A DNA stretch of 64,000 nucleotides, taken from IMG/VR virus record IMGVR_UViG_3300042382_000268, positions 62,001 to 126,000 of that record. One strand, written 5' to 3'. The notes under the pieces are model-generated. The model made no database searches, was not told the DNA's origin, and worked only from the letters and a program-made list of their open reading frames with translations. The number at the start of each line of letters is the position of its first letter. Positions within the stretch are counted from its first letter, which is position 1. This DNA is from a virus. Of the stretch, positions 23,113 through 55,315 are shown in pieces. A program made the translations under genes and the position numbers.

Positions 23113-26100
23113 ATGGCTCAAGCTGATTTTACCATAAAAAGCGGATTTACCGCTAACGACATTTTGCAAGTTAATTCAGAAACTGATTCAACATCATCTA
23201 TAACTGGTGCGGCAATTGTTGTAGGTGGTATGGGTATTGGTAAAAAATTATATGTAGGTAGTGGTATTAATACCACTACCGGTACTTTTACATCAACCGT
23301 TTCAACAACTCAATTAACATCAACTATTGCACAAGGAACTGCACCATTTGTTGTAACTTCTACCACGCCTGTTACTAACTTAAAATCAGATTGGGTAGTA
23401 ACAAATGCAAATATGACAGGTCCAATTACAGGAACTGGAAATGTAACTTCTATCACAAGTCAAACTGGTACTGGTACTAAATTTGTTGTTGATAATTCAC
23501 CAACGTTAATTACTCCAGATATAGGAGTTGCAACTGCAACTACGGTTAATAAAGTAACAATTACTGCTCCGGCTACTAATTCTGTACTAACTATTGCTAA
23601 TAACAAAACGTTAACTGCAAGTAATTCTATTACGATTGCAGGTACTGATAGTAAAACTTTAACTGTTACAAATTCGGTAGCATTTTCAGGTACTGACAGT
23701 TCAACGTTAGCATTTAGAGCAGGTGGCCAAGTTGCATATACTGATAAAGATAAATTATCAGCATTTTTAGCAACTACATCAGCTGAATTAGCAACTGTAA
23801 TTTCAGATGAAACCGGAACTGGTGTTTTAGTTTTTAGTACAAGTCCTGCATTTACTACATCAATTACAACCGGATCTACTAGTTTTGATTTAATCAATAC
23901 TACTGCAACTACTGTAAATTTTGCCAAAGCAGCAACTGCATTAAGTATTGGAGCAGCTACTGGAACTACTACAGTTAACAATAACCTACAAGTAACTGGT
24001 GACATTTATTTTAATGGTACTGCAAGTAAACTTAGTTCAACTAACATTGAAGTTAACGATGCATTAGTTTATTTTGGTGCAAACAACATAGGTGATTTAT
24101 TAGATTTAGGGTGGATAGGACGTTACAACAACGGTGTTGTTAACGATGCTCACGTAGGATTTATAAGAAGTGCTGCAGATAAAGAATGGAAACTCTTTAG
24201 TAATATTACTGCAGAACCGACTACTACTGTAGACTTAACAGGAGCTACATACGATAATTTAAGGATTGGAAAACTAACAACTACTGGTGTTAATAAGGTA
24301 GCAATAACTGCCCCAACTACAAGTGCAACATTGACTATTGCAGACGGCGCAACGTTTGCAACATCAGGTGCATTTACTACTACAATTACATCAACTGCTA
24401 ATACTGCAGTAACATTACCCACTTCTGGAATATTAGTTAATACATCTGTAACAACACTCTCATCATTAGCATCAGTTGGTACTATTACTTCGGGTACTTG
24501 GTCAGGATCATTCGGCATAGTATCAGGTTCAAATCTTACAAGTTTAACTGCAGGAAATTTAAGTGGAACTATTCCAAGTGCAGTGTTAGCTAATTCAACA
24601 CAGTATATTGGAACAACTGCTATTACGCTATCGAGAGCATCATTAGCACAAACCCTAACCGGTGTTAGTATTGACGGTAATGCTGCTACAGTTACCAGTG
24701 GAGTTTACACAACTGGAAGTTATGCAGATCCAGCATGGCTTACAAGTTTAGCTTATTCAAAAATAACTGGAACTCCGAGTGCATATTCATTACTAGCAGC
24801 TACTACAACTACATTAGGTGGGGTAAAAGTAGACGGTTCTAGTATTACAATAAATGGGTCAGGTGTAATTAGTACTCCTGGACCAACACTTAAAACTATA
24901 AACAGTAGTTCACTTTTAGGATCAGGAGACATTGCAGTAGTATCATCATTGTCAGTTACATCAGCTAACGGGTTTGCAGGTTCTATTTCTGGAACTTCTT
25001 CATCAGCAATTACAATTTCTACTTCTATAACAGGATTATTAAAAGGTAATGGAACTGCAATTTCAGCCGCTACTGTTAACACAGATTATTTACCTGCAAC
25101 CAGTCCAGCTGTTACTACATCGTTAACTACTCCGTCGACGTCTTTTGATTTAATTAATACTACTGCAACTACTGTAAATTTTGCCAAAGCAGCTACTACC
25201 TTGAGTATTGGTGCAGCAACTGGTACTACTACAATTAATAATGCAATTTCGTCAATATTTGATGCAACATTTAACTCGTGTGTGGTTGGCTCTGGATCGT
25301 ATTCAACAAATATAAGAGTCGGATTTGGCACATTAGCTAACGTTACTGCAGCCGGTGTTAGAAACACTAGTGTAGGATATGCTCCGTTATCGTATACTAC
25401 TTCTGGTACAAAAAATACTGCAATAGGGTATGGCGTATTAAATGTTAATTCAACTGGCAGTTCAAATACCGCAATTGGTTCATCGGCATTAATAAAAAAT
25501 TCAATAGGTAACTATAATGTTGCGCTTGGTTCAGAATCATTAATAAATCTAACTACATCAGTTGCTACTATTACATTTACTGCCGGATCTGGATATACTG
25601 CTAATTCTACATTTACTGCAGCACAATTAGTGTATTCATCAGGTACAGTTGCAGGATCGTATCCAACTGCTACTATTGTTACCAATGCTAGCGGAGTAGT
25701 TACAAGCGTAACGTTAGTAACGTATGGAACTGGATTTACTGACGCAACTACTGTTATGACGTATGCAAGTATGGGCGCCGGTACCGGATTTACTGTAACC
25801 GCAGCAACATTATCAGCTACTGGAAGCAGCAATATTGCAATTGGCTATCAAACATTACTTAGCACAACTACTAGCGGCACTAATATTGCAATTGGGACAC
25901 AATCGTTAGCATTAAATACAACCGGTAGTAGCAATACTGCAATTGGGCATGCAGCAGGGTATGCAGGTAGTTCAAATGCAAATGCTACCGGATCAAACAA
26001 TGTATATGTTGGTTATTATGCCATAGGATCTGGAACAGCTAACACAAATGAAATTGTAATTGGATCATCTGCTATTGGTTTAGGAAGTAATTCTACTGTA

Positions 26101-26571
26101 ATTGGTAACAGTACTACAACTTCGGCTAAAATATTTGGTGCATTAACATTAGCAGGTTCTTCGTCAACGTTGGCTGCTATTCTTACAAATATGGCAGAGG
26201 TAACAACTGTAATTGCAACTGCTGCAGCAACTTCAGTTACTTACTACACGTCGTCACAGGCAGTTCTATATTATACAACTGCAGCATCATCAAACTGGGC
26301 TATAAACATAACACATTCAGCAGGTACTACACTAAACACCGCGTTAGGGATTGGGCAATCAATCACTGTTGCATTTTTAGTAACTCAAGGAGCTACTGCA
26401 TATTATAATACCGCAGTTCAAATAGACGGAACAGCAGTAACTCCAAAATGGCAAGGTGGATCAGCGCCAACTTCCGGTAATACTAACGCTCTTGATGTAT
26501 ATTCGTACACTGTAATTAAAACTGCAGCTTCAACATTTACTGTGTTAGCATCAATAACTAAATTTGCATAG
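23113..26571 (+). CDS. Fibre/adhesin protein with NTAIG repeats
   Basis: A 1152-residue paralogue of the preceding gene, nine bases after its stop, with SD AAGGAAA. The N-terminal 90 residues contain SITGAAIVVGGMGIGKKLYVG, a module shared with the gene at 30789. Residues 98-170 repeat the MTGPITGTGNVTSITSQTGT module, and residues about 255-300 and 675-710 the SFDLINTTATTVNFAKAA module. Between about residues 735 and 1010 there is a run of NTAIGxxxL repeats, interrupted by a TFTAGSGYTANSTFTAAQLV insertion. It ends with a beta C-terminal domain whose SVTYYTSSQAVLYYTTAASS stretch resembles the end of the gene at 59830. It is a probable trimeric side or tip fibre. Confidence 0.75.
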   Translation: MAQADFTIKSGFTANDILQVNSETDSTSSITGAAIVVGGMGIGKKLYVGSGINTTTGTFTSTVSTTQLTSTIAQGTAPFVVTSTTPVTNLKSDWVVTNANMTGPITGTGNVTSITSQTGTGTKFVVDNSPTLITPDIGVATATTVNKVTITAPATNSVLTIANNKTLTASNSITIAGTDSKTLTVTNSVAFSGTDSSTLAFRAGGQVAYTDKDKLSAFLATTSAELATVISDETGTGVLVFSTSPAFTTSITTGSTSFDLINTTATTVNFAKAATALSIGAATGTTTVNNNLQVTGDIYFNGTASKLSSTNIEVNDALVYFGANNIGDLLDLGWIGRYNNGVVNDAHVGFIRSAADKEWKLFSNITAEPTTTVDLTGATYDNLRIGKLTTTGVNKVAITAPTTSATLTIADGATFATSGAFTTTITSTANTAVTLPTSGILVNTSVTTLSSLASVGTITSGTWSGSFGIVSGSNLTSLTAGNLSGTIPSAVLANSTQYIGTTAITLSRASLAQTLTGVSIDGNAATVTSGVYTTGSYADPAWLTSLAYSKITGTPSAYSLLAATTTTLGGVKVDGSSITINGSGVISTPGPTLKTINSSSLLGSGDIAVVSSLSVTSANGFAGSISGTSSSAITISTSITGLLKGNGTAISAATVNTDYLPATSPAVTTSLTTPSTSFDLINTTATTVNFAKAATTLSIGAATGTTTINNAISSIFDATFNSCVVGSGSYSTNIRVGFGTLANVTAAGVRNTSVGYAPLSYTTSGTKNTAIGYGVLNVNSTGSSNTAIGSSALIKNSIGNYNVALGSESLINLTTSVATITFTAGSGYTANSTFTAAQLVYSSGTVAGSYPTATIVTNASGVVTSVTLVTYGTGFTDATTVMTYASMGAGTGFTVTAATLSATGSSNIAIGYQTLLSTTTSGTNIAIGTQSLALNTTGSSNTAIGHAAGYAGSSNANATGSNNVYVGYYAIGSGTANTNEIVIGSSAIGLGSNSTVIGNSTTTSAKIFGALTLAGSSSTLAAILTNMAEVTTVIATAAATSVTYYTSSQAVLYYTTAASSNWAINITHSAGTTLNTALGIGQSITVAFLVTQGATAYYNTAVQIDGTAVTPKWQGGSAPTSGNTNALDVYSYTVIKTAASTFTVLASITKFA

Positions 26572-26581: not shown

Positions 26582-29500
26582 ATGCCATCATTAATATCTT
26601 TTGGAACTGCAGCAGGACGTGCATATGGGTTAACTAATAAAAAGGGTTCGTCTATAGGTGATCCGTATTGGGATAATGTTACTATTATGTTACATTTTAA
26701 TGGAACAAGCGGGTCTACTGTTGCTACTGATACAAGTAATAATCAGTTAACAATGACTAATATATCGTCGTTAAACAGTATTAATACATCTACCTTAAAA
26801 TTTGGAACTGGATCAATGTATTTTCCAGGAACTTCTAATTTAACTAATCCAAGTACTGCAACTACATTAGTTGGTTTAAATAACAATTTTACAATTGAAT
26901 TTTGGGTATATCTTAATGGCACGCAAGGTGCATGGAAAGGATTTTGCGGAAACTATTTAGATTCGAGCTACGGATCAAGAAGCTGTTGGGCAATTGGGCT
27001 TGACGGCACCGGTAGTGGCTTAAGCTCGAGTATTGCAACCAGTACCAACGGAACATATCAAGGTACATCTTTAGGTACATCAACTTATACAGTATCGCCA
27101 AACACATGGTATCATGTTGCATTTGTTCGATCAGGCAGCACGTTTACTCAATATGTTAATGGATCAAGTACTGGAAGTTTTACATATTCTGGTTCAATAT
27201 ATGATGGCGGTTCTAATCTTGAAGTCGGATCGTACATTAACGGAGGGTATCGATTTACTGGATATATGGATGAATTTCGTATTACTAAAGGTGTTGCAAG
27301 ATACACTGCAAACTTTGTTCCTCAATCATTTGAATTTTTAGATTTTAGTACCAGTAGTACTGCCCCTGTAATTACTGCCATTGGCATATCATCTTCATCT
27401 GGTATACAAAATAATTATATGAATGAAACTGATTCATTAATTGCTGTAGTGTCGTTTAACAAAGCAGTTACTATAACAGGAACTCCGAGATTGGCAGCAA
27501 ATATCGGTGGAAGTATTTTATATCTAAATTATGTAAGTATATCTGGATTAAACGTTTATTTTTCATATGGATCATTACCTGCAGGATATAACGACTCTGA
27601 TGGTATTAGTTTTGATGCAAATGCAGTATCATTAAATGGCGGAACAATAATTGATATAGCAGGTAATAGTGCTGATCTAACTAGTCTTGCAGTAGCAGCA
27701 AATCCATCGTATAAAGTAGACACTACCGCCCCAACTGGAGGATCGATAAGTGTAGATGCAAATGGATTAGTTACAGTAAGTGGATTAGAGTCTGGAGCAA
27801 CTTGGCAATTCAGTACTAATTCTGGTAGTTCATGGACGACTGGTACCGGTACTACATTTTCTTTAGCTACGGGTTCATACGCAATAGGTTCAGTTCAAGT
27901 ACGACAAACTGACTTAGCAGGTAACGTGCAAACATCTGGAATTGCATATAATTCATCACTTATAACAGTAGCATCTACTTATGATGTAACAAAATTAAGC
28001 TTATTAATGAACTGTGACGGTGCAAATGGTTCAGCAATCTTTTTAGATCATTCATTAAACAACGTAACTTTATCTAACGGAGGCGGTGCACCGCAACTAA
28101 GCACAGCTACCTATAAGTTCGGTACTTCGTCGTTGTATGTTAACGGATCAAGTAGCAGGGTGAGCGCACCAAATAACGCTTTATTTAACTTTGATTCAGG
28201 TGATTTAACTATTGAATTTTGGATGTACACTCCAATTGCATGGACAAGTCAAGCGTATAGTGCAGGAATACTTGGACAAAAGGCAAATGATTCTACTAAC
28301 GGGTGGGTACTTTATATTGATGGAGGTTATCCATCTAAAATAAATGCAAGACTTGCATTAGAAAACAATTTTCCAACGGGAAGTACACCAACACAAAATA
28401 CATGGGAACATTGGGCATTAGTAAGATCTGGTACAACATTAAAATGGTATAAAAATGGAGTTTTAGATGCAACAGGTACATCCTTTGCTGCTGTTTCAGA
28501 TTCAACTGGAACGTTTTATATTGGACACGCTCAAACATGGGGCGGATATTTAAACGCGTATTTAGACGATATTCGAATTACTAAACAAGCATTGTATCTT
28601 TCAAACTTTACACCTCCTACATCAAAATTGTTAACTTATCCGGACATATACTATAACAATGTAAGTTTACTTTTAGTAGGCGATGGTGCTAATGGGGTAA
28701 ACACGTTTACCGATCTAAGTCCTACACCTAAAGCAATTACTGCTGCCGGTAACGCTATTAACAGCACTACTACTTATAAAACTGGCACATCATCGATGTA
28801 CTTTGACGGTACCGGCGATTATCTGTATGTAACAACTGCAAATTCTGCATTTAATTACGACATAAGCAATTTTACTATTGAATTTTGGGTATATCCGCAA
28901 GCAGGTCCTGCGTCAACTTATAACCCAACATTCTTTACAAATCATGGTGACAACGATTGGAATTCAGTAGGTACTGGTGTTCGTATTCATCATCAAAATG
29001 TGTTAATTGGAAGCTCTCAAATAACATTCAGTAGTCCTATAACTAATAACGTGTGGACGCATGTTGCTCTAGTACGAAATGATAACATAATTACTGCATA
29101 TAAAAACGGTGCAAGTGTTGGTAGTGTTTCGTACACCGGATCAGTCGGCGCCAATTCGGATCGTCCTGCATTAGCAACATCAGACAGTGTTGGTAGTGGA
29201 GGTAGAGAATTCTTACAAGGGTTTATCGACGACCTTCGTATTACTAAAGGTATTGCTCGATATACATCAAACTTTACTGCACCTGGACGATTAGGGGTGT
29301 TACGTATAGGAGCTTCTGCGCCGCTTACTATGACGTTAGCAGGTGGTACTAATGTAACTATTAACAAAGCATGGTTAATGACAAACGGATGGGATGGAAA
29401 TTCAATACTTTCTACAACTATTACTAATACTGCAGATATTCGATCTTCAACTACTTCAGTTGCAGCATTAACATTTGCAGCTGATTTGTCAACACTACCA

Positions 29501-30739
29501 TCTGGATCTTCTATTACTTTTACTAATAGCTCCGGAATTTATATTGCAGGACGAGGAGGAGATGGCGGTGTATGGGGAGGCGCAGGCGGCGCAGGCGGCA
29601 CTGCAATAGCAGTAAACGCGGCAATTACATTTAACAATAATGGAATTATTGGCGGTGGCGGTGGCGGTGGCAGCAGTTATTGGGGATGTGGTGGCGGTGG
29701 CTGGGGAGGCGGCAACGGCGGATCAACAGCCGACACAAGATCAGGCGGTGGAGGTGGTGGCGCCGGGGGTGGTGCAGCTGGTACCGGCCCGATGGGCAAT
29801 GGCACAGCTGGTAGTACAAGTCTTGCAGGTGCAGGTGGTAGCGGTGGATATTCGGGCGCAAGTGGAGGTAGCTCACTTGGTGGAGGTGGCGGTGCCGGGT
29901 CAACACAAAGTGCAACAACAGGCGGTGCAGGTGGTGCTAACGGTAATGCAGGATCAGGTTCCGGTTACGGCGGTGCAGGTGGTGGTTCTGCTGGAGCTTC
30001 CGGTGGTATAAATACTGGCAGTGGTGCCGGCGGTGCAGCTGGTGCAGCGGTTGTTGGTAATTCTTATATTACCTGGGGAACTACTGGCACAAGATACGGA
30101 ACTCCGTTTAGTGTAGTTATACCTACTCCATTAAACTTAGTTAGTTCAAATCGATCGCCATTGTATGGTGCATCAAGCGCCGGTTCATGGCCTCCAAGTG
30201 GATGGACATCACAAATAAATAGTAGCCAAGACGATGCTAACTTTGGTCTTACCCTACCGTTTACTTTTTACTTTAACGGAACTGCATATACTACCGTGTA
30301 TGTAGGATCAAACGCTTATATAACTTTTGGAAGTGGTTCGAGTAACTACTCTGGGTTATCAGCTTCAAATCCAGCAATTGATAAAATCATGATGAATTCA
30401 GGTGACAGAAGTTGGCAACGGGTTGCCACTTATTCAACAAGTTCTTATGTAAGAATTAGATATGAAGGCAGTGCATCTACTTCAGGAACAGTCGGCGCAT
30501 CAACAGTAATTTACGAATGTACAATATTTAATCCAAGTGTTCAAAGTGGAAACTCGGTAATTGAATGGATTATAGGATCTAGTAACATTATTAGTAGTAC
30601 TAATATTGCGGGAATATATTCAAGTTCTGCATTAATAACAGCTTGGAGTCCGGCTGCAAATACATCATATGTATTTGCAAGTAATTCAACTGGAACAGCT
30701 TGGCAAGTGTACAGTGCATACATTAGCGGGTATTATTAA
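26582..30739 (+). CDS. LamG-domain and polyglycine adhesin
   Basis: A 1385-residue protein starting at ATG 26582 with SD AGGA; a TTG six codons upstream is an unlikely start. Three concanavalin A/LamG-like domains are marked by YKFGTSSLYVNGSS, (F/L)TIEFWxYxx, H(V/W)A(F/L)VR and (D/E)(F/D)(R/I)ITK signatures at about residues 35-265, 480-685 and 695-910. An Ig-like region (VVSFNKAVTITGTPRLAANI through VDTTAPTGGSISVDANG) lies between the first and second. Residues 1000-1155 are a polyglycine region with GGGGG clusters, and the last 210 residues form another beta-sandwich. LamG domains bind carbohydrate in many proteins, so a receptor or glycan-binding tail protein is the likely role. Confidence 0.8.
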   Translation: MPSLISFGTAAGRAYGLTNKKGSSIGDPYWDNVTIMLHFNGTSGSTVATDTSNNQLTMTNISSLNSINTSTLKFGTGSMYFPGTSNLTNPSTATTLVGLNNNFTIEFWVYLNGTQGAWKGFCGNYLDSSYGSRSCWAIGLDGTGSGLSSSIATSTNGTYQGTSLGTSTYTVSPNTWYHVAFVRSGSTFTQYVNGSSTGSFTYSGSIYDGGSNLEVGSYINGGYRFTGYMDEFRITKGVARYTANFVPQSFEFLDFSTSSTAPVITAIGISSSSGIQNNYMNETDSLIAVVSFNKAVTITGTPRLAANIGGSILYLNYVSISGLNVYFSYGSLPAGYNDSDGISFDANAVSLNGGTIIDIAGNSADLTSLAVAANPSYKVDTTAPTGGSISVDANGLVTVSGLESGATWQFSTNSGSSWTTGTGTTFSLATGSYAIGSVQVRQTDLAGNVQTSGIAYNSSLITVASTYDVTKLSLLMNCDGANGSAIFLDHSLNNVTLSNGGGAPQLSTATYKFGTSSLYVNGSSSRVSAPNNALFNFDSGDLTIEFWMYTPIAWTSQAYSAGILGQKANDSTNGWVLYIDGGYPSKINARLALENNFPTGSTPTQNTWEHWALVRSGTTLKWYKNGVLDATGTSFAAVSDSTGTFYIGHAQTWGGYLNAYLDDIRITKQALYLSNFTPPTSKLLTYPDIYYNNVSLLLVGDGANGVNTFTDLSPTPKAITAAGNAINSTTTYKTGTSSMYFDGTGDYLYVTTANSAFNYDISNFTIEFWVYPQAGPASTYNPTFFTNHGDNDWNSVGTGVRIHHQNVLIGSSQITFSSPITNNVWTHVALVRNDNIITAYKNGASVGSVSYTGSVGANSDRPALATSDSVGSGGREFLQGFIDDLRITKGIARYTSNFTAPGRLGVLRIGASAPLTMTLAGGTNVTINKAWLMTNGWDGNSILSTTITNTADIRSSTTSVAALTFAADLSTLPSGSSITFTNSSGIYIAGRGGDGGVWGGAGGAGGTAIAVNAAITFNNNGIIGGGGGGGSSYWGCGGGGWGGGNGGSTADTRSGGGGGGAGGGAAGTGPMGNGTAGSTSLAGAGGSGGYSGASGGSSLGGGGGAGSTQSATTGGAGGANGNAGSGSGYGGAGGGSAGASGGINTGSGAGGAAGAAVVGNSYITWGTTGTRYGTPFSVVIPTPLNLVSSNRSPLYGASSAGSWPPSGWTSQINSSQDDANFGLTLPFTFYFNGTAYTTVYVGSNAYITFGSGSSNYSGLSASNPAIDKIMMNSGDRSWQRVATYSTSSYVRIRYEGSASTSGTVGASTVIYECTIFNPSVQSGNSVIEWIIGSSNIISSTNIAGIYSSSALITAWSPAANTSYVFASNSTGTAWQVYSAYISGYY

Positions 30740-35435: not shown

Positions 35436-36032
35436 ATGTTTACAATACCAGATATCCATTCTGCGTTAGAACCATGCGTTTGCTGGTCAGGCGCATTTTC
35501 AGAAGAAGAACTTGATGCAATCATCGAACTAGGTGATGCTCAAGAATTTCATCAAGGCAAGACAGGCTCAGGCGACGGCATAGACGATATAGCTGTTCGA
35601 AACAGCAATATATCGTGGATACAGCCGGCGGAAGATACTGCTTGGTTGTTTAATAAAATGGTTGAAGTAGTTGCAAGAATGAATACCGATAAGTATCAAT
35701 TTGATTTAACATCAATCGACGAGTTTCAATATACTACTTATACTACCGGAGGGTTTTATTCGTGGCACATTGACGGCATGGCAGAAGATACGTTTGGACC
35801 TAGACATAGAAAACTTGGTATTATTTTAGTGTTATCTGACCCTACTACTGAATTTGCAGGAGGTGAATTCCAGATTATCCCAGACGGCAATCCCGAACAT
35901 GTAAATACAATAGAAATTAAGAAAGGAGATGTATTAGCATTTCCTGCATTTGTTCCTCATCAAGTTGCAGAAGTTACTTCAGGTAAACGCAGAAGTTTAG
36001 TATGCTGGGTGCTTGGGCCAAAATTTAAATAA
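35436..36032 (+). CDS. 2-oxoglutarate/Fe(II)-dependent oxygenase (PKHD-type)
   Basis: A 198-residue enzyme of the prolyl-4-hydroxylase-like double-stranded beta-helix family. The iron ligands are visible as SWHIDG (His111, Asp113) and FVPHQVAEV (His175), and Arg185 in TSGKRR is placed to bind 2-oxoglutarate. The segments RKLGIILVLSDP, EFAGGEFQI and KKGDVLAFPAFVPH are the usual strand motifs. Such enzymes hydroxylate proline or other residues using O2 and 2-oxoglutarate; the substrate is unknown here. Relatives are common in T4-like marine phages. It sits between virion genes and two paralogous unknown proteins, nine bases after the Asn/Tyr-rich protein, so virion proteins are candidate substrates (inference). 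The start has only a weak SD. Confidence 0.9.
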   Translation: MFTIPDIHSALEPCVCWSGAFSEEELDAIIELGDAQEFHQGKTGSGDGIDDIAVRNSNISWIQPAEDTAWLFNKMVEVVARMNTDKYQFDLTSIDEFQYTTYTTGGFYSWHIDGMAEDTFGPRHRKLGIILVLSDPTTEFAGGEFQIIPDGNPEHVNTIEIKKGDVLAFPAFVPHQVAEVTSGKRRSLVCWVLGPKFK

Positions 36033-36043
36033 TCAAAGGATTT

Positions 36044-36763
36044 ATGTCATTATTATCATTTTTTAAAGATCCTCTTATAGAGTTTTTAACTACCGAAGAA
36101 TATTACGATATTCTAATACCCCCTGCACCTGCAAATAAATTTATACCTGATTGGTATAAAGTAATTCCATCCCACAGCAAGAAAAATAGAGATGCAAAAG
36201 GTGGATTTGCAATGACTGCAAAGAAATGTTTACCAATGATTGATGCAATGACTCACGGCTATATTATTCCGCTAGCAGGTGATGTACATATACGAACAAA
36301 CGATGATGCAACTAGAATTGATATTACTGAAAACCATTATGTTAAACTTACAGATGAACACAGCGAAGAACAAGTAGGACCGCAGTTCCCGTTTCCAGGT
36401 AGGCATTTAGTTAAATTTATAAATCATTTTGTTATAAAAACTCCTCCTGGCTATTCGTGTTTGTTTGTAGCACCAATTAATCATTTAGAAACTAGATTTC
36501 ATACATTAGGTGCAGTTGTTGATACTGACAAATACGACAGAGAAATAAATTTTCCAACATGCTGGTTAGCAGCTAATTATGACGATATATTACCTGCCGG
36601 TACACCTATTATACAATGCATTCCTTTTAAACGTAGTACAAGTATTAATGAATGTGACGTTCGTCCATTTACAGATACAGAATTTAAAAAACGAGAAATT
36701 ACTAGATTAAAACAAGACAATCAAAATAGTTATTATGTAAATAATCTTCGAGTAAAAAAATAA
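36044..36763 (+). CDS. Conserved phage protein of unknown function, paralogue A
   Basis: A 239-residue soluble protein with SD AAAGGA. Visible motifs are IPPAPANKFIPDWYK near residue 25, KKCLPMIDAMTHGYIIPLAGD near 65, KTPPGYSCLFVAPINHLE near 133, FHTLGAVVDTDKYDREINFP near 153 and PAGTPIIQCIPFKR near 187. It is a paralogue of the next gene, which keeps the same motif order. The alternating beta strands with conserved Pro/Gly turns and a late GTPxxxxIPFKR element suggest a cupin-like barrel, but no metal triad is obvious, so I do not assign a function. Its stop overlaps the start of the next gene (TAATG). Confidence 0.8.
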   Translation: MSLLSFFKDPLIEFLTTEEYYDILIPPAPANKFIPDWYKVIPSHSKKNRDAKGGFAMTAKKCLPMIDAMTHGYIIPLAGDVHIRTNDDATRIDITENHYVKLTDEHSEEQVGPQFPFPGRHLVKFINHFVIKTPPGYSCLFVAPINHLETRFHTLGAVVDTDKYDREINFPTCWLAANYDDILPAGTPIIQCIPFKRSTSINECDVRPFTDTEFKKREITRLKQDNQNSYYVNNLRVKK

Positions 36764-37515
36764 TGTCGGTATTTTCAAAAATTAAATCATCAGTATCTGA
36801 AATGTTTAGTCCACAACCAATAATTAGGTTTAAGTGTTGTATTCCGGGATATGAAATTGGACAACCAGTGAAACGTGCAATGGATGTAAAACCAGACTGG
36901 ATGATCAAACAATTAAAAGACTCCGAAAAAAATAATACCCCTAAATTTTCGTCATGTCCGGGTATGCACGACTATTATAGAACAGGATATATTATTCCTG
37001 CATGGGAAGATTTTGAAATTGTAGTAAATGATAAAACTGCAAATATTAAAATTGGCATAACTGATCAAATAAGTTGTGCTCCTTTTGAAAGAATGGGATA
37101 TAGTGTTCTTGCAGGCGCTGCTAATATTGATGAGAATATTAAACCACATGCCCTAAAATTACCGTGCCCGTGGAAAGTATTTACTAAACCGGGATATTCT
37201 GCATTTGTTATGCCTGCGTTATATCATTCTCCATTTTTAAGAGATTTATTTTTATATCCGGGAATAAACGATTATGATCATTACCATACAATTAATGTTA
37301 TGTTTTCACCATTAAGAGAAATGCGTGTTAAAATATATGCAGGTACTCCAATGTTGCATGTTATTCCGTACAAACGAGAAGACATTACAGCCGAAGTTGG
37401 ATTAATAAATCAGAAAGAGGCCGGGTTAGCTAACTTTACTTACCGAACAAAATCTCCCGGCTTTTATAGAAAATGGTTACACCAAAAGAAAACAACTGAT
37501 ATAACTTACCTTTAA
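36763..37515 (+). CDS. Conserved phage protein of unknown function, paralogue B
   Basis: A 250-residue protein whose ATG shares one base with the stop of paralogue A. The shared pattern is PDWMIKQ, then CPGMHDYYRTGYIIPAWEDF, FTKPGYSAFVMPALYHSPF, INDYDHYHTINVMF and YAGTPMLHVIPYKRE. The N-terminal 25 residues (KIKSSVSEMFSPQ) differ. Tight coupling suggests the two are made together and may form a heteromer. No catalytic signature is certain. Both could act with the upstream 2OG oxygenase in the same process. Confidence 0.8.
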   Translation: MSVFSKIKSSVSEMFSPQPIIRFKCCIPGYEIGQPVKRAMDVKPDWMIKQLKDSEKNNTPKFSSCPGMHDYYRTGYIIPAWEDFEIVVNDKTANIKIGITDQISCAPFERMGYSVLAGAANIDENIKPHALKLPCPWKVFTKPGYSAFVMPALYHSPFLRDLFLYPGINDYDHYHTINVMFSPLREMRVKIYAGTPMLHVIPYKREDITAEVGLINQKEAGLANFTYRTKSPGFYRKWLHQKKTTDITYL

Positions 37516-38350: not shown

Positions 38351-41300
38351 ATGGCTGAGTTTAAATTAGAAAGAATTAGATTTTCATGGGTAGGAGATTG
38401 GATAGCTGCTACTTTATTTAGAAAGGACGATATTGTCCGATACGGCGGCAAATCATATGTCTGTTTAGTTGGCCACACTTCAAGTTCTAATTTTTATACA
38501 GACCTTAACTACGTAGATACTGCATCAGAACCAGATATTCCTAAACCAAAATGGGTACTATGGTTTGACGGTTATGAATTTAGAAATAACTGGACTGGAA
38601 GCACGTTGTATAATTTAGGTGACATTGTTAGATACGGAAGTTTAATCTATGTATGTAACGAATCACATACTAGTGATCCATTAGGATTAGAATACACATT
38701 AAGCAAATGGGTAATATACGCAATTGCTGAAAAATGGGGGAATGCGTGGCTACCATTAACTAACTATAAAGTTAATGATATTGTAAAAATATCAGGAAAT
38801 TTATATCGGTGTAATACTACGCATGTGTCAGCATCTACTATTTCAACCGGTGTTACACCAGATATTGCTAAATGGGATGTTGTATCAACCTCAGAAAATT
38901 GGCAATCAAATTGGATACCCGGAGCACGATATGAAATTAATAGTACTGTTAGATATGGCGGTATTGTTTACTCTTGTGTTACCGGTCATGCTGCAGCTGC
39001 AACAGATGCGTTAGGTCTTGAAGCTGATATAGAAAAATGGACTGTTATTCATGCTGGTATTGATCATAAAGGTATTTTTGCATTAGCAGTTCGATATAAA
39101 TTAAACGACACTGTAAAATATGGTGCAAATGTATGGATTTGTACAGCAGGCCATACTTCAGTTTCTACATTTGATCCAAATAACTGGGCAATTTATATCC
39201 CAGGTAACGAATATGTTGATCAATGGACTGATATTACACAATATGTTCCGGGAGATATTGTAAGATACGGCGGATATAGTTATACTTGTCTTAATCACAA
39301 TCTTAATGTTATCCCATACGGTCATCTACTTGACTGGAGATTATTAACAATTGGATTTAAAGTTGTTGGTAATTGGGATAATGTTACTACATTTAAAACT
39401 GGTGATCTTGTTCGTCGTAACGGTAGATTATATGTAGCAAATGCTAACACTTCCTCGCAAGAACCCACAACTAATTCAGTGTGGACATTAGTTGTACCGG
39501 GGGACGAATGGCATAAAGTATGGGTAGTGTCAACAGCTTATGCAGTCGGTGACATTGTTGATTATGCATCTACATTGTACCGTTGCATTTTAGCGCATAT
39601 TGCATTAAATTTAATCAAACCGTCAATTGATAACACTTATTGGGAACGAGTAATAGATGGTGATCCACGCAATCCATTAACATACGCAGGCGATACAGTT
39701 TCTTATAACTTAGATGAAAATATAAGAACAGGAATTGGCCAAACAAGTCAATTGTTTAAATCAGAAATATTACCATATTTTGGCGGTTTTGGAGAAATTG
39801 GTTACATATACTACGTATCACCATCAGGAGTTGATGATCCATCTTATGGTAAAACGTTAGATCTACCATTTAAGACTATTAAATATGCTTGTGATTTTGT
39901 TAAAGCTGGTACACAAAATCAAAATGCAAATTTTTTATTAACTTCAAATAGAGCATGGGTACTTGCAGAGATGTATCAATGGATGTTATATCAAAAAGCT
40001 AATAATATTAGTCCATTTACTGTTAGTTCTGTAATTGATCAATCTAAAACAATTCGAGATGCAAGTATTATCTTTAATGCATTATCTTATGATATATCTC
40101 GCGGCGGTAATAGCCAACTAGTTACTAATACATACGCATATTTTCAACCAGGTACTAATTTATTCTTTAATACAGACGTTGCAAATGACATGCCGTATAT
40201 TATTGCAGCATTAACAAAAATGATATCATTGATTCAAGACGCAGTTTCAAACTCTGCACCTTTGCAAAGTTATCAATTGTTAAACGGAGTAACTGTTCCT
40301 GCATTACAAGTTATTAATCCATCATATCCTCCTGAACTAGGAATTAACAACTTAATAACAACATTATCAAACATATTAATTAACGCACTAACTACACAAA
40401 CAACTTCAAATATACCTAAAATTACCGGCGGGTTAGATGCAACTATTTTTATTAAAACTGGTACATATTATGAAAATACACCAATTATTGTTCCTGCTGA
40501 TACTGCATTAGTAGGTGATGAACTTCATAGTACCATTGTACATCCGGCTATTGGCAATGAATTAGTTGATATGTTTAGAGTACGAAATGGCACTGGTATA
40601 AGAAATATGTCATTAAAAGGATTATCTGGAACATTAGGACCAGCTAATCAATATTTAACAAAACGTCCATCTGCAGGTGCTTATGTTAGTTTAGATGGTG
40701 GTGCAGGACCGGCTGATTCATCAACTTGGATTACTACAAGATCGCCGTATATTCAAAATGTTACAAACTTTGGTGTGGGTTGTGTTGGTTTAAAAATTGA
40801 TGGAAATTTACACGGTGGTGGGAATAAATCTATTGTAGCAAACGATTTTACACAAGTATTAAGTGACGGAATTGGCGTTTGGTGTACCGGATCTAACGCA
40901 TTAGTTGAATTAGTATCTGTGTTTTCATATTATGGACATATTGGATATTTAGCAGAAAATGGTGGTAGAATCCGTGCTACTAATGGTAATAGTTCATATG
41001 GTAACTACGGTACGGTTGCGGAAGGGTACGATTTATCAGAAACTCCTCAATTAGGAACTATTAATAATAGAACACAAGAAGCACAAGTTGCGTCAGTAGT
41101 TGCAGGTGAATCTCAAAATAAAATTATATTATTAGAATATTTAACAGCTGGGCAAAATTATACAGCAGCGGCATATTCGTTTGCAGGTTCCGGTACTGGA
41201 GCAATTGCAGTTGCTGATGAATTTAGAGATCGCGCAATCTTTGAAAATAAAATATATGGAACAGAAATATCTGCAGGTGGCGACGGGTATTCTACAGCAA

Positions 41301-44095
41301 GCAACCATGCACAAACCGGTGATGCAACTACAATTACAATTGCGTCAAATGACACTAATCTTGCTGTAAATTATATAGGCATGCGAATTGTATTAACTAG
41401 CGGAACCGGTGTTGGACAATACGGGTATATTCAGGCATATGACGAAATTGGAAAAGTTGCAACGGTATATAACGAACAAACGGGATTAATTGGGTGGAAT
41501 CACATGATTCCGGGTACTGTAATTTTATCAGAACTTGATGCTACTACTGTATACAATATTGAACCTCGTGTTACATTTTCAACACCGTTATACTCATCAA
41601 CTGCAGTTACTTTACCGGCTGCATCTTGGACAGGTGTGGTATATGGCAATGGCAAATTTGTAAGCGTTGCATCGTTTTCAAATGCAGCATATTCAACTGA
41701 CGGTACAACATGGTCTGTAGGATCAAATTTCCCAAGTTTAATATCCCCAACGGTAGCATATACAAATGGAATATTTGTCTCTGTAAATGCAACTACTACA
41801 TCATACGCATTCTCAAATGACGGTATTACATGGGACTCGGGTACTTTTTCAACAGGCGCATCGTATTCAAATGTAATTGCAGTTGGTACTACATTTGTAG
41901 TTGTGAGTTATAGTACTACTGAATTATTAGTATCATCTAATGGTGTATCATGGGCTCCTGTAGCTGCTACTGGCATACAATCTGGAAAAATTGCATACGG
42001 TGCTAGCACGTATGTATCGTTTGCTAGTGGTAGTACAAATGCAGCTGCATATTCAACTAATGGAACAACTTGGACTAGCGTAACATTACCAACAACTGCA
42101 ACATGGGCAAGCATTACATATGGTAATGGTAGATTTATTGCTATTGCAACTTCAGGAACATCAGTTGTTTATTCATTAGATGGTATTACTTGGGTAGCAT
42201 CTGCTGTGTTAACTGCAGCAGCGTGGACATCTATTGCATACGGGCAAGGTGTGTTTGTTGCAGTTGCAACCGGAACAAATACAATTGCTACAACACAAGA
42301 CGGAATAGTATGGATTACTCGAAGTATTTTAGCATCTAATCAATGGTCAGCGGTTGCATTTGGAAATCCATCATCATTAAGACAATTCATTGCAGTAGCA
42401 ACCGCCGGTTCATCTGCAGGTAGACAAATACTAGCAGGTGCTCAATCGTTTGGTAGAGCAGTAATTGCATCCGGAAAAATTGGTAGCATTAATATTTGGG
42501 AACCTGGCAGCGGATATTCACTAACTCCAACTGTAGTGCAATTTGTTGGTTCTATCTCTAATACAACATTATCTGTTACTTATGTAATATCAGGTGCTCT
42601 TGCTGCAGGCTTGTTTTTAGGCGGCGGTCGAGGTAATATATCTGCTAATACGTCTATTACTACAGTAAATAATGCAGTATTTACTGGGTTTATATCAAAT
42701 ACATCTTTAACTATTGTTTCAATAGTTTCAGGAACTGTTACGTTTGGCATGGTAATCGATAACGGAGCAGCAAGTTCCGGTACAACTATTACAGGAACAA
42801 TCACTGCAGTATTTACTGGATCAATAACCGGAACTACGCTAACTGTAACTGGAATGACTTCTGGAGTTATTTCTGCAGGCATGGTGTTAACCGGTGGCGC
42901 TATACCTGCAGAAGTGTTTATTGTTTCAAATATAGCAGGAGCAGGGATCAATAGTACATGGTTAATCAATACAACTGTTAGTCAATCTTCTACATTGATA
43001 ACTGGAACAAAATACACAGTTGAAAATGGACAAATTAATGGTTCGCCAAGTCTAACAGTTACATTTAATGCAGTTAACTACACTATAAGTTTAACTCAAA
43101 CGGTTGCGTCTGCTAATATGTTTGCGTACACATTAGGATCTGCAGTAGTAACTCTTACTGCACCAGATGCCATAACAACAGTAATTGTAAATTGTAGAAC
43201 TGCAGACGGTGTCTTAGGGAATCCTTCTTTTACAAATCGAGGAAATAATTATCAAACTTCAACTACAAGTTGTACAATTAGCGGTAACGGATTTGCAGAT
43301 ATTCCAAGTATTTCTAAATATGTTTATGTTAGCGGGTTGGACGCAGCACCTAGTCCAGGAGCTAGTATTGCAATTTCCGGAAACTCAACACAATTTAAAA
43401 TTGTTAACATTACTCTAATTTCAACAGGTACTTATTATTTTCAAATTGCACCTGCACTTACTAGAATGACTGCTCCGGTTCATGCCACTGCAGTTGAAAT
43501 TAGACAAAAATACAGTCAAGTTCGGTTAACTGGTCACGACTTTTTGTTAATTGGAACCGGTAATAAAGAATCGACTAATTTTCCTAATACTGATATTACG
43601 TTAGCATTACAGGCATATCAAGTTCAAGAAAATAATCAAGGACGGGTATTTGTAACTGCAACTGATCAAGACGGTAACTTTAAAGTAGGTGGGCAATTTG
43701 CAGTACAACAAGCAACTGGTATTGTTACAATTTCGGCAGATTTATTTAACCTAGCAGGATTAAATCAAATTACATTAGGCGGCGTGCAAATTGGACAAAA
43801 CACTGTTACAATTACGCAATTTTCAACCGACTCTTACTTTACTGCAAATAGTGATAACATTGTCCCTACACAAAAAGCTATTAAATCTTATTTGGCTAGA
43901 CTAATTAGTAGCGGTGGTGCAAATGCAATGACGTCTATTTTAACTGCTGGTACAGTCGGTATCGGCCCGCAACGCATTTTTTCATCGTCAAACGATACTA
44001 TTGTAATGAATAACAATGTTAATTTCACAGGCGGGATTGCCGGTACTATGTTAGCATTGCAATATTTTATGCAATCACCTGGATCTACTGACTAA
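38351..44095 (+). CDS. Giant baseplate/fibre protein with CBM-like repeats, beta-helix and propeller (1914 residues)
   Basis: SD GAGG precedes the ATG. Residues 13-425 hold about eight repeats of the form W-x(2)-W-x(4)-Y-x(2)-(G/N)D-(I/V)-V-x-Y-G-x(2)-Y-x-C-x(3)-H-T-S, closely resembling carbohydrate-binding modules of families 5/12. From about residue 488 a pectate-lyase-like beta-helix begins (YYVSPSGVDDPSYGKTLDLP) and runs to about 900, with SPYIQNV and GLKIDGN rungs. A single degenerate CxRD-type helical module without its Cys lies at nt 40040. Residues 1090-1345 repeat YGNGxFxxVA-x(n)-S-x-DG-x-x-W, a BNR-like propeller. The last 200 residues (YSQVRLTGHDFLLIGTGN, then NSDNIVPTQKAIKSYL) are shared with the next gene. 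It is likely a glycan-binding virion component. Confidence 0.8.
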   Translation: MAEFKLERIRFSWVGDWIAATLFRKDDIVRYGGKSYVCLVGHTSSSNFYTDLNYVDTASEPDIPKPKWVLWFDGYEFRNNWTGSTLYNLGDIVRYGSLIYVCNESHTSDPLGLEYTLSKWVIYAIAEKWGNAWLPLTNYKVNDIVKISGNLYRCNTTHVSASTISTGVTPDIAKWDVVSTSENWQSNWIPGARYEINSTVRYGGIVYSCVTGHAAAATDALGLEADIEKWTVIHAGIDHKGIFALAVRYKLNDTVKYGANVWICTAGHTSVSTFDPNNWAIYIPGNEYVDQWTDITQYVPGDIVRYGGYSYTCLNHNLNVIPYGHLLDWRLLTIGFKVVGNWDNVTTFKTGDLVRRNGRLYVANANTSSQEPTTNSVWTLVVPGDEWHKVWVVSTAYAVGDIVDYASTLYRCILAHIALNLIKPSIDNTYWERVIDGDPRNPLTYAGDTVSYNLDENIRTGIGQTSQLFKSEILPYFGGFGEIGYIYYVSPSGVDDPSYGKTLDLPFKTIKYACDFVKAGTQNQNANFLLTSNRAWVLAEMYQWMLYQKANNISPFTVSSVIDQSKTIRDASIIFNALSYDISRGGNSQLVTNTYAYFQPGTNLFFNTDVANDMPYIIAALTKMISLIQDAVSNSAPLQSYQLLNGVTVPALQVINPSYPPELGINNLITTLSNILINALTTQTTSNIPKITGGLDATIFIKTGTYYENTPIIVPADTALVGDELHSTIVHPAIGNELVDMFRVRNGTGIRNMSLKGLSGTLGPANQYLTKRPSAGAYVSLDGGAGPADSSTWITTRSPYIQNVTNFGVGCVGLKIDGNLHGGGNKSIVANDFTQVLSDGIGVWCTGSNALVELVSVFSYYGHIGYLAENGGRIRATNGNSSYGNYGTVAEGYDLSETPQLGTINNRTQEAQVASVVAGESQNKIILLEYLTAGQNYTAAAYSFAGSGTGAIAVADEFRDRAIFENKIYGTEISAGGDGYSTASNHAQTGDATTITIASNDTNLAVNYIGMRIVLTSGTGVGQYGYIQAYDEIGKVATVYNEQTGLIGWNHMIPGTVILSELDATTVYNIEPRVTFSTPLYSSTAVTLPAASWTGVVYGNGKFVSVASFSNAAYSTDGTTWSVGSNFPSLISPTVAYTNGIFVSVNATTTSYAFSNDGITWDSGTFSTGASYSNVIAVGTTFVVVSYSTTELLVSSNGVSWAPVAATGIQSGKIAYGASTYVSFASGSTNAAAYSTNGTTWTSVTLPTTATWASITYGNGRFIAIATSGTSVVYSLDGITWVASAVLTAAAWTSIAYGQGVFVAVATGTNTIATTQDGIVWITRSILASNQWSAVAFGNPSSLRQFIAVATAGSSAGRQILAGAQSFGRAVIASGKIGSINIWEPGSGYSLTPTVVQFVGSISNTTLSVTYVISGALAAGLFLGGGRGNISANTSITTVNNAVFTGFISNTSLTIVSIVSGTVTFGMVIDNGAASSGTTITGTITAVFTGSITGTTLTVTGMTSGVISAGMVLTGGAIPAEVFIVSNIAGAGINSTWLINTTVSQSSTLITGTKYTVENGQINGSPSLTVTFNAVNYTISLTQTVASANMFAYTLGSAVVTLTAPDAITTVIVNCRTADGVLGNPSFTNRGNNYQTSTTSCTISGNGFADIPSISKYVYVSGLDAAPSPGASIAISGNSTQFKIVNITLISTGTYYFQIAPALTRMTAPVHATAVEIRQKYSQVRLTGHDFLLIGTGNKESTNFPNTDITLALQAYQVQENNQGRVFVTATDQDGNFKVGGQFAVQQATGIVTISADLFNLAGLNQITLGGVQIGQNTVTITQFSTDSYFTANSDNIVPTQKAIKSYLARLISSGGANAMTSILTAGTVGIGPQRIFSSSNDTIVMNNNVNFTGGIAGTMLALQYFMQSPGSTD

Positions 44096-44153: not shown

Positions 44154-47100
44154 ATGGCTGAATTTAAACTAGGTAGAATACGATTCATATGGAAAGATGA
44201 GTGGACTCCATCCACATCTTATCTACGAGATGATGTTGTTAGAAACGGTGGTAAAGCATACGTTTGTATAGCAGGGCATACTAGCTCTGTTTTGTTTACA
44301 ACTGATTTAACCGGTATTCCTACAAAATGGAATCAAGTATCTGACGGTACTACATGGAGATCAAACTGGACAGTTAACACATATTACAATTTAAATGATT
44401 TAGTAAAATATGGTGGAATTGTATATATCTGTAATAATAGTCACAACTCTGCAGCAACTCTTGTATTAGGCCTTGAAGCAAATCAAAGCAATTGGACATT
44501 ATATGCAACTAGCTTTGATTGGAAATCAACTTGGACAGTATCAACAAGATATAAAAAGAATGATGTTGTAAAATATAGTGGTAGAAATTATGTGTGTAAT
44601 GCTGGTCATACTTCTGCAGCAACATCTGCGCTGGGTCTTGAAAATGATCAAGGTAAATGGGATTTATTTACTGATGGTTTTACATGGTTAACTGATTGGA
44701 CAGTATCAACAAGATATAAAGTAAATGATGTTGTAAAGTATGGAGGACAGACATATGTGTGTAATGCTGGTCATACTTCTGCAGCAACCGCTACGTTAGG
44801 TCTTGAAAATGATCAAGGTAAATGGGATTATTTCCATAAAGGTGTTAATTATTTAGGTCAATGGAGTGGAAGTTCTGTTCGTTATACAGTTAATGACTTA
44901 GTAAACTACGGTGCCGATGTTTGGATATGTACAACATACCATACATCATCTACACTATTTGAAGAATCAAACTGGGCAAGATTTGTTGAAGGGTTAACTT
45001 ATGAAGATTCATGGGATAACGCAACACTTTATCAGCCTGGAGATATTGTTGGGTACGGTGGTTATTCATATATTAGTAAAACTAATAATTCAAATAAAAC
45101 TCCTACTGCTAACGCAAGTGATTGGTCTTTATTTACAACCGGATTTTCGTTTATTGGAGATTGGGCATCTGGGCAATCATATTTAGTTGGTGATGTTTTA
45201 CGAAATGGTGCGTACACTTACGTAGTTACAGCTGATCACACTTCTGCATCTAACAATCAACCACCAAATGTTACTTATTGGTCAAGATTAAACTCAGGGG
45301 TAAAATGGGCAAATACTAATAAGACATATACTGCATTAGCAGGTACAAACATAACAGCTGCTGGCAGCTCTGCAACATTTGATGTTAGTACAATTGGTAC
45401 TTCTTACACTGTTACTAAAAATGCAGGTGGTACTGGATATGCTGCAAATACAACCATTAAGATATTAGGTACACAAGTTGGCGGGTTATCACCGTTTAAT
45501 GACGTGTTAATTACTGTTGCTACTGTTTCGGGTAATGCAATTGCTACTATTACAGCAACTGGCTATGCAGCAACATGGGATACTAGTGTTAACTATGTGT
45601 TAGGCGATACTATAAGTGTTGGACCAAACAGTTATATTTGTATTTTAGCACATACAAGTGCAAGTGGTAACAGACCGGATGTTGATGTATCAGGACAGTA
45701 CTGGAATGTGATTGCTGCGGGTGCGCAAGACTCGGTGTTAACAACAGCTGGTGATATACCATACATGAGTCAAAGTGGTCCTACACGATTAGCAATCGGT
45801 GACCCTGGTCAGGTGTTAAAAGTTTCACCAACGTTACTACCATCGTGGGGATATTTTGGTGTTATTGATCAAATTTATTATGTTGGGCAGACTGGCTTAA
45901 ATAATCCAGCACCAAGTTATGGCGCAACTTTAGATCGTCCGTGGTTAACTGTTAGATATGCAGCTGAACAAGTTACAAACGGACCATTAAATCCAAATGC
46001 AAAATATTTCTTAACAAATAACCGGGCATATATTCAAAAAGAAGTTATTGGATGGATTAATTCACAAATAACTAATAATACACTACCATTTACATCAGCA
46101 TTTACTTATAATGAAAGTAAATGTGAGCGTGATATTGGCTATGTAGTTGATGCGTTAGCTTATGACTTATCGCATGGTGGCAATGCTAAAGTTGTAGAAG
46201 TTGCTCAATCGTATGTATCCGGAAGTTACACTGTATTAGGTACCCAATCAAGCCAAGATGTTGCTGGATATAACTATATGTTGTCTGTTATTAATTCAGT
46301 AATTGCAAGTACTTCACCAAATACTTCATATCAAGCAACAGTAACAAGAGTTTCAAATAATCTTAAACCTGTTGAACCTGGCGTAGTTACATTGTTATCA
46401 AATTTAGTAGGTGTTATCACAGCAGCAATTACTGCCGGTGTAAGTACAAATATTCCGGCGGTTGTTAGTACAACTTATTCTATTTTTGTTAAAACAGGGA
46501 TTTACTATGAAACACTTCCAATTATTGTTCCAGATAATACGTCAATTATTGGAGACGAATTACGATCAACAAATATTAGACCGTCCCCGTCGTTAATTGC
46601 AAGTAACGATATTGCAAAATCAATTTCAGCAGTTACATATATTCAATCAATTACGTCAGATATTATATCAAACACTACAGTTGCATCGCCGTATCAGGTT
46701 ACAGTTTCTCAAGATGTGCATTTGCCAGCAGGATCTGTCGGTAGTACGTCTGCAGTAACTGCAGTATCGGAAAATGCCGATGTAATGTACACAATTCTCA
46801 ATGGCGGTACAGTGTCAGCACCTCCTTATACATACACCGACCCAACAAGTTATAATACTGGATTTTTAAATGCTAGACGATTAATTAATGCTAACAAACA
46901 ATTTTTAAAAGATGAAGTTACTGCATTTATGGTACTTAATTACAGTTCAATATGGACTATGTTAGGTCCAGCAGGTCAAGCATCATGTACGCGTGATATT
47001 GGCTATATTGTTGATGCAGTATACTACGATTTAACATACGGGACTACTCTTATTCCTTGTAATTTAGCTACAACAATTGTTGCAAGATCATATTATAGCA

Positions 47101-52345: not shown

Positions 52346-53122
52346 ATGGCAAATTTACGAGATTTATCGTTAATTGTTCCACCAGTTTTTGCATCGTATG
52401 CGCCTAAACAATTAATGATTATGAACGGCAGAGAAGGGGTTGGTGTTACAACCGGAAACACTTGCTGTTGCTGGATAGTGCCGTCAGGTACAACTTGGGC
52501 TACATTTGAAGTATACGGGTCCGGCGGAGACGGCGCTGGTGGGTGTTGTTGTATGGGATCATGCATGGCATCCGGCAATGGTATGTACGTAGTAAAAACT
52601 ATTCAAACATGCGGCTGCGCATTTTATAATATTTGTGTTGGTATGTCAGGTTGTTGTTCACCAAACTGTTGCGGCACATGTGGGTTTCCTAGTTATGTTA
52701 CAAACACTGCAGGTTCTATGGTTGCGTGTGCTAGTGGAGGAGTAGGCGGTACTACCGGTTGTTGGATGATGTCACAAGCAAGCTATCAAGGAATTAACTG
52801 TGGTGGTAGAGTTTGCGGGTGTTGTGGTCTTGGAGATATGCAATATCCAAGTATGACTCAAGGATCCAAACATAGTAGCTATTGTGCAAACCATAATTTT
52901 CCATTTTTGTCGGGTACTTATCAATATGCACCAAATACTAGACACGGGCAAGATGACTGTTCGGTTGGGTATGCAGGATCAGGTTGTATGAAATGGTGTG
53001 CATCACCGTCTAATGCAACATCATGGCCCGGCGGCGGCGGTGCAAACGGTCTCGGATGTGGTGGCGCTTGTTGTTGGGGAAGTTGGGGTACACCTGGAAT
53101 GGTTTTAATTACATACGGATAA
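52346..53122 (+). CDS. Cysteine- and glycine-rich adhesin-like protein 1
   Basis: A 258-residue protein with SD AAGGAG. By my count 28 residues are Cys, many as CC or CCC. The core begins NTCCCWIVPSGTTWATFEVY and continues with GGDGAGGCCC, then FYNICVGMSGCC, several Gly/Cys loops, and the end GGACCWGSWGTPGMVLITYG. The scaffold W-x-x-P-x-G-T-x-x-x-x-F-E-x-x-G-x-G-G at the front and WGxxGMVxITYG at the end is the glycine-rich domain seen at phage fibre tips. In T-even gp38-type adhesins such Gly-rich motifs form polyglycine II sandwiches carrying receptor-binding loops. The Cys content is not typical of that family. No signal peptide. It is followed by a chaperone-like gene. Confidence 0.7.
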   Translation: MANLRDLSLIVPPVFASYAPKQLMIMNGREGVGVTTGNTCCCWIVPSGTTWATFEVYGSGGDGAGGCCCMGSCMASGNGMYVVKTIQTCGCAFYNICVGMSGCCSPNCCGTCGFPSYVTNTAGSMVACASGGVGGTTGCWMMSQASYQGINCGGRVCGCCGLGDMQYPSMTQGSKHSSYCANHNFPFLSGTYQYAPNTRHGQDDCSVGYAGSGCMKWCASPSNATSWPGGGGANGLGCGGACCWGSWGTPGMVLITYG

Positions 53123-55311: not shown

Positions 55312-55315
55312 TAAT

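Follow-up and report, generated by a model that had tools for sequence, protein, structure and literature searches.

A composite phage adhesin with LamG and gp38-type domains, probably docked on the preceding fibre protein by an N-terminal peptide

In T2-type phages such as S16 and PP01, the gene of the distal fibre protein gp37 is directly followed by that of the adhesin gp38. The receptor-binding domain of gp38 is reported to combine a beta-helix with a polyglycine-II (PGII) sandwich from which loops protrude; these loops were cross-linked to OmpC in PP01 and are presumed to contact the receptor in S16 (PMC12892980). The fibre protein gp24 of cyanophage Pam3 is reported to carry a glycine-rich receptor domain similar to S16 gp38, but with a TNF-like domain in place of the beta-helix, as a trimer with a helical shaft and with a separate chaperone, gp25 (PMC9608196). 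LamG (Laminin G3) virion proteins of jumbo phages place at least one concanavalin-fold lectin domain on tail fibres, whereas the available text of that source mentions no gp38-type module and lacks the word gp38 (PMC7824862). Receptor-binding proteins are also described as mosaic, with a conserved N-terminus that binds the tail structure and exchanged C-terminal binding domains (PMC10684548). Here we analysed a 64,000-nucleotide stretch of viral DNA (the window; positions 62001-126000 of the 175,916-base-pair IMG/VR record IMGVR_UViG_3300042382_000268) and describe a gene at its positions 26582..30739, which encodes a composite adhesin of 1385 residues. Its first 17 residues appear to pair not with a tail structure but with a domain of the fibre protein whose gene directly precedes that of the adhesin.

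The adhesin modules run in the order plug peptide, LamG1, weakly immunoglobulin-like (Ig-like) stretch, LamG2, LamG3, gp38-type domain and C-terminal beta domain. The initial annotation, made from the letters of the window alone, had assigned to one open reading frame (ORF) three LamG domains, a polyglycine block and, at the C-terminus, a beta domain, and this was borne out by Pfam, composition and strand prediction. The ATG at 26582 has a GGA 8 nucleotides upstream and follows the stop of the upstream fibre gene after a gap of 10 nucleotides; a TTG 18 nucleotides before the ATG is a possible alternative start. The features are as follows (L numbers denote the fetched viral loci).

23113..26571, plus strand: upstream long fibre-type protein, 1152 residues (phrog_6002 'virion structural protein', 4.4e-60)
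26152..26568, plus strand: C-terminal domain of this fibre protein, the proposed 'socket', residues 1014-1152 (alignment A7)
26582..30739, plus strand: composite adhesin, 1385 residues from the ATG (single ORF, Pfam and composition)
26582..26632, plus strand: N-terminal 'plug' peptide MPSLISFGTAAGRAYGL, residues 1-17 (score 18.5 with a weight matrix trained without it)
26666..27355, plus strand: LamG1, residues 29-258 (Pfam Laminin_G_3 and three-copy profile; nearest relative in the fetched loci L154, 57.7%)
27356..27979, plus strand: possibly Ig-like linker, residues 259-466 (Big_13 E value 0.0037, below cut-off; low model confidence)
27980..28648, plus strand: LamG2, residues 467-689 (Pfam Laminin_G_3 and three-copy profile)
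28649..29290, plus strand: LamG3, residues 690-903 (Pfam and three-copy profile; nearest relative in the fetched loci L157, 54.4%)
29288..30109, plus strand: gp38-type receptor-binding domain with beta-helix and PGII sandwich, residues 903-1176 (structure matches, Foldseek, alignments)
29537..30052, plus strand: glycine-rich block, about residues 986-1157 (composition and GC content)
30155..30736, plus strand: C-terminal beta domain, residues 1192-1385 (45% identity with the last part of Synechococcus phage S-SRM01 protein QPX48297)

With a probability of about 0.7, we read this protein as a modular adhesin that is docked on the upstream fibre by its plug and presents the LamG, gp38-type and beta domains. 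The plug, about 17 residues long, would dock the adhesin onto the socket of the fibre protein, at the fibre tip. The body would then present a chain of binders, namely three LamG domains, the gp38-type PGII domain and the extra C-terminal beta domain, with the distal loops of the PGII domain contacting the receptor. The gene would act like gp38 at the end of gp37, coding for a detachable adhesin just after the gene of its fibre.

Sequence and structure comparison identified the polyglycine block as the core of a gp38-type receptor-binding domain of the T2, S16 and PP01 kind. Glycine makes up 40.5% of residues 991-1190 and 10.8% of the remaining protein, and the local richness in G claimed in the initial annotation was evident, with GC content reaching 0.58 and GC skew 0.36 at 29500-29999. 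In a Pfam scan of the entire protein, GP38 (PF05268) matched residues 922-1032 with 32.6 bits, above its cut-off of 25. A hidden Markov model (HMM) was built from six T-even gp38s of 249-262 residues; scored without composition correction, the module obtained 129.8 bits (best domain 91.4), and the highest value among 300 shuffled versions of its residues was 88.6 bits (best domain 49.4). With the HMMER composition correction, none of the shuffles was reported. As 0/300 shuffles attained the score of the module, we rejected the reading of the glycine block as compositional noise. An alignment with five gp38s contained 36 invariant columns, and the motif order GRGGxG, NxGxIxxGGGGG, glycine motifs and GxAVxGxxxxWxxxGxxxG was present, as it is in 36 environmental modules.

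The structural comparison gave the same picture. The model of residues 893-1385 had a mean predicted local distance difference test (pLDDT) score of 64, with values above 90 in much of the beta-helix. VIA-align placed PP01 gp38 (9v85_A) first with Z 19.6, 207 aligned residues and 27% identity, and S16 gp38 (6f45_D) second with Z 19.4, 208 aligned residues and 31% identity; the following row had Z 5.5. In Foldseek, S16 gp38 (6f45_D, E value 8.8e-5) was the sole PDB match under 0.001. At least 120 viral stretches were fetched by a polyglycine DNA pattern, and 123 ORFs with such a module were found among the matches listed; in 31 of these, as in gp38, the protein stops 23-25 residues downstream of where the motif AGxAxxG begins. 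The modules of L014 and L082, both of those given to Pfam, exceeded the GP38 cut-off. No useful match came from tblastn of the glycine module, and tblastn of alignment A1 gave 600 pattern matches with 0 confirmed, both likely through low-complexity filtering; phmmer of the module against PDB gave no useful match either.

With no gp37-binding end found, the window protein is no T-even gp38: the full-length HMM aligns from position 50, and its first 49 positions, which lie within that end, have no match in the protein. Instead, the module is preceded by the 17-residue peptide, three LamG domains (LamG3 directly N-terminal of it) and the linker, and is followed by the beta domain, so that the protein is far longer than the six gp38s used. 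The plug most likely takes the place of the gp37-attachment end of gp38.

The plug came to light through a neighbour comparison, in which the last part of the upstream fibre and the first part of the window protein were seen next to each other in L215. The socket of the window is 56-71% identical to 36 homologues (alignment A7); the profile built on these 37 rows, the window among them, matched the window fibre with an E value of 2.6e-64. The PHROG family phrog_5906 (unknown function) matches residues 1010-1151 of the fibre protein (7.8e-22). Searched against Pfam, the 37 members gave nothing better than an E value of 0.03, and the PDB profile search returned one weak match (0.09). Viral loci were fetched by the fibre C-terminal domain alone and the best 80 matches were kept. 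By inspection, a plug of the MPLIGTRGAASARGFGF type opens the next gene in 77 of them, with the pattern M-P-[LT]-[IL]-x-T-[RK]-G-A-A-S-A-[QRK]-G-F-G-[FL] and a start at -8 to +12 nucleotides from the socket gene stop. Left out were L264 and L267, whose next ORF begins MFGITS..., and L311, where the ORF chosen is another fibre piece; L264 has a plug gene further downstream. In L251, two proteins bear plugs (5563 and 8435), the second not directly behind the first socket. The nearest socket to that of the window, in L236 (72%), is followed by the plug MPSIITRGTVAARGFGF, compared with MPSLISFGTAAGRAYGL in the window.

The bodies behind the plug are diverse. Single-linkage BLAST clustering divided the 77 into 14 groups without a BLAST link, the largest holding 39. 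LamG arrays were found in 7/77, glycine-rich bodies in 21/77, and a head starting YIEDVFSTYLYTGNG-like, by pattern, in 25/77 loci. Among the few bodies given to Pfam were SBBP beta-propeller repeats (L238) and DUF7483 (PF24299, 370.5 bits, L243:2605-4554, where it is the frequent YIEDVFSTYLYTGNG-like head), a family of unknown function which may thus be a phage adhesin. Two bodies, in L249 and L253, are gp38-type by motif. These two and the head of the isolate record MW202481 are so assigned by motif only, because Pfam GP38 gave no match for L249 and MW202481 and 24.8 against the cut-off of 25 for L253.

A weight matrix was then derived from 61 distinct 18-mers of the 80 socket loci (some of them near-duplicates, the window excluded), with a threshold score of 10. 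In these training loci, 74/1152 ORFs of at least 80 residues scored 10 or more, 72 of them being the immediate next gene; in sample, 74 of the 77 plugs passed, and L260, L293 and L300 fell below the threshold apparently through an inserted residue. Among 3528 ORFs of the other loci only five passed, namely the window protein (three copies), L215 and L082, and the next score was 8.3. L215 had been fetched by LamG and L082 by the polyglycine DNA pattern, and in each a socket gene lies directly upstream of the plug gene. The window plug is low for its family, with the leave-one-out median of the training peptides at 34.6, and is, copies aside, second only to L215 among the 3528 ORFs. Outside the training set, all six contigs of bacterial metagenome-assembled genomes with a complete socket scored 18.3-40.7; in a further two cases the contig ends too early. 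In MW202481, the protein with the plug (27.1) bears the annotation 'phage tail fiber adhesin gp38'.

The codons of the plug were also inspected. Gly, Ala, Pro and Thr, where conserved, are encoded by all four of their codons, and Ser by all four TCN. Since synonymous codons vary, it is the protein and not the DNA that is conserved, and selection acts on the peptide; the reading of the plug as a conserved DNA recombination site was therefore rejected. Plug identity tracked socket identity across 2002 pairs with unlike bodies (rho 0.26, 0/500 permutations); placeholders stood for the bodies of L215, L082 and MW202481, and these were thus treated as different from every other body. When the N-terminus itself was used as query, a strict DNA pattern found five stretches, with only that of L151 having the motif within an ORF of at least 120 residues, at an internal position; tblastn of residues 1-45 returned 22 weak records, none of the listed matches starting before residue 18. 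A literature search, mostly at title and abstract level and with few subscription papers, found no description of the peptide or of the docking scheme.

Three stretches of the adhesin match Laminin_G_3 (PF13385), with 180.8 bits against a cut-off of 27.6 and 2.4e-53 for the whole protein; the three copies together supplied the profile that set their boundaries. The copies share 28.5-36% pairwise identity, which agrees with the initial annotation that they are diverged; as proposed there, they may bind different glycans. The LamG fold occurs in many other binding proteins. In the model of residues 1-904 (mean pLDDT 60, confident mainly for LamG1), the best solved match was domain 4 of the arabinanase AbnA (Z 20.9-21.4), which has also been solved with an arabino-oligosaccharide. 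The three LamG domains are probably carbohydrate-binding; the AbnA match fits this without proving it. A Toxin_R_bind_N match and structure matches to clostridial binding domains were judged to reflect the shared LamG jelly roll only, and a toxin reading was dropped. For the linker between LamG1 and LamG2, Big_13 gave 18.2 bits under a Pfam cut-off of 27, and the Ig-like label is therefore unconfirmed.

The order of domains had been called unusual in the initial annotation. This held in so far as LamG together with a gp38-type motif was seen in 0/102 other LamG ORFs, but its Ig-like component lies under the cut-off. The survey covered 106 LamG ORFs in the fetched loci, four being the window protein or its copies; the count of 0/102 refers to the strict pattern only, because the expression N.G.I.GGGG misses gp38-type heads such as those of L249 and L253. 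LamG arrays and gp38-type modules, taken singly, are both common in phages. Two or more LamG copies are present in 58/106 ORFs and three in 27, the window protein's own three records included, so the array as such is ordinary. One of the 102 others (L132) is fused to a Gly_rich_2-like domain, and in L154 a LamG and a polyglycine module are encoded by two genes separated by a single ORF. Two environmental phage ORFs, L165:3-6308 and L156:3-8327, carry nine and eleven LamG matches in a single chain, respectively.

The C-terminal beta domain is predicted with modest confidence to consist mostly of strands, and its VIA-align rows had Z 5.5 or below. Apart from QPX48297, 12 environmental relatives with 40-45% identity were found, each forming the C-terminus of a protein of 284-289 residues. 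In all of these, S-SRM01 included, the domain is joined to an N-terminus of about 95 residues that differs from that of the window protein. The window protein is thus built of modules that also occur apart. It also sets a gp38-type receptor domain between LamG modules and a further beta domain.

Several observations weigh against the reading of a plug-docked adhesin with LamG and gp38-type binders, and they should be considered together with the explanations that compete with it. On the side of the binding domains, the Pfam GP38 match was gone for the cut-out module and in a six-frame search in which no control gave a match; because of this loss on the module alone, probably through composition correction, the gp38 identity was checked by the other means given above. 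With that correction, the gp38 HMM gave the cut-out module 11.8 bits (E value 0.0022) and did not report the full protein. Domain structure prediction, suggested as a check in the initial annotation, supplied the LamG1 fold, the AbnA match and the gp38 fold, but the LamG model was poor outside LamG1 and the glycine loops were modelled at low confidence. Since the alignment to AbnA extends from residue 29 to 681, the LamG model blends LamG1 with a portion of LamG2 and is of little use for judging the copies one by one. The loops are also poor in bulky residues, and the PGII part might therefore be mostly spacer. A competing explanation is a plain elongated lectin fibre, whose LamG domains do the binding and whose polyglycine block serves as a structural linker that does not touch the receptor. 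The three LamG domains make up nearly half of the protein, and the glycine block exceeds that of the compared gp38s in length, with loops rich in Gly, Ser and Ala. However, the gp38 fold is kept, including the beta-helix and the terminal motif, and about a quarter (31/123) of the listed module-bearing ORFs stop right at that motif, as gp38 does. We consider the plain lectin fibre quite unlikely, and expect the PGII part to bind a host surface molecule, as the LamG domains would.

With respect to docking, the 80 socket loci are best matches and no random sample, and the plug-socket correlation is weak (largest permuted value 0.257), with shared ancestry as a possible contributor. Among 12 isolate records with a socket-like domain, the next genes begin with MP in 10, and only those of MW202481 and Roseobacter phage CRP-3 (12.7) scored 10 or more; in CRP-3, the next annotated gene is 199 nucleotides away. 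The isolate cyanophages mostly have no plug on the next gene (for S-CAM22, the gene after its second socket-like gene was scored), and in these and in DSL-LC01 the socket-like domain is just 35-42% identical to the queries. Roseobacter phage CRP-738 has a domain with 57-60% identity, yet its next protein starts MLGTLGGGSARGMGRG and scores -23.3. The window itself holds a second, diverged socket (59809-61434, E value 5e-13), followed by a gene without a plug. Another explanation is that the plug is a recognition tag for a chaperone or a baseplate part, and that the genes adjoin only through co-transcription of fibre genes: CRP-738 has the fibre domain without the peptide, fibre chaperones are reported to bind distal fibre parts in Pam3 (PMC9608196), and a role of chaperones in capping fibres has been considered for Alteromonas phages (PMC10579305). 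Against it, the canonical sockets in loci fetched by other routes (the window with its copies, L215 and L082) each precede a plug gene, of the 74 socket-locus ORFs with high scores 72 come directly after the socket gene, and plug similarity follows socket similarity; we regard a tag of this kind as unlikely. Ordinary phage mosaicism would instead make the protein a set of fragments fused by recombination, with an N-terminus of no special docking role. Mosaicism of tail proteins is well described (PMC10684548), and the nearest relatives differ for LamG1, LamG3 and the C-terminal domain. Nevertheless, a 17-residue peptide kept before 14 body groups with varied synonymous codons suggests a function, and mosaicism alone appears very improbable.

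Beyond the window, docking by plug and socket would be widespread. We lean towards a scheme in which the fibre-end domain accepts any plug-bearing adhesin, so that distant tailed phages could swap whole heads with the fibre left unchanged. In the same scheme, and held with the same leaning, the swapped heads would be LamG arrays, gp38-type PGII domains, beta-propellers, DUF7483 and glycine-rich proteins, and the window protein would be a composite head. If the plug does dock heads, it would offer a sequence tag for host-recognition proteins in metagenomic phages whatever their fold, DUF7483 included, and would help to explain the exchange of whole adhesins between distant phages.

In this explanation, the source virus would be a jumbo-like myophage of the T4 supergroup. 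Its portal protein is nearest to T4-supergroup jumbo myophages (48-51%), and its capsid protein to Sinorhizobium phage Phosso (70.5%), Vibrio phage 2.275.O (68.6%) and PA5oct-type Pseudomonas phages (65.5%). A cyanophage affiliation by gene content was rejected, given these capsids and no psbA-type gene (PF00124; one of 14 controls gave a match). A diversity-generating retroelement was likewise rejected, with no reverse transcriptase (PF00078) in the record, which is possibly a fragment (3/14 control genomes gave a match). The only further allele of the adhesin gene found is on contig L004, with 1 mismatch over 16,155 base pairs.

The adhesin gene is flanked on both sides by fibre-type genes, each matching phrog_6002. 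A second fibre and head pair lies at 59830-62247, where a Gly_rich_2 protein (PF21722, 47.4 bits) without a plug begins 3 nucleotides past the fibre with the diverged socket. A 512-residue protein encoded at 33888-35426 matches neither PHROG nor Pfam and has repeats rich in Tyr, Asn and Thr (e.g. NYTTVTGTANY and NATNYPYANT). At 35436-37515, beside the fibre cluster, a 2OG-Fe(II) oxygenase-like protein is followed by two phrog_7084 proteins. Two related giants of 1914 and 2497 residues (38351-44095 and 44154-51647) contain repeated CBM_5_12 carbohydrate-binding modules, with eight and five such stretches, respectively. At 52346-55963, three Cys- and Gly-rich proteins alternate with two related proteins of 224 and 215 residues (48% identical); two of the three share 47% identity over 116 residues, and one has a weak Gly_rich_2 match under the cut-off.

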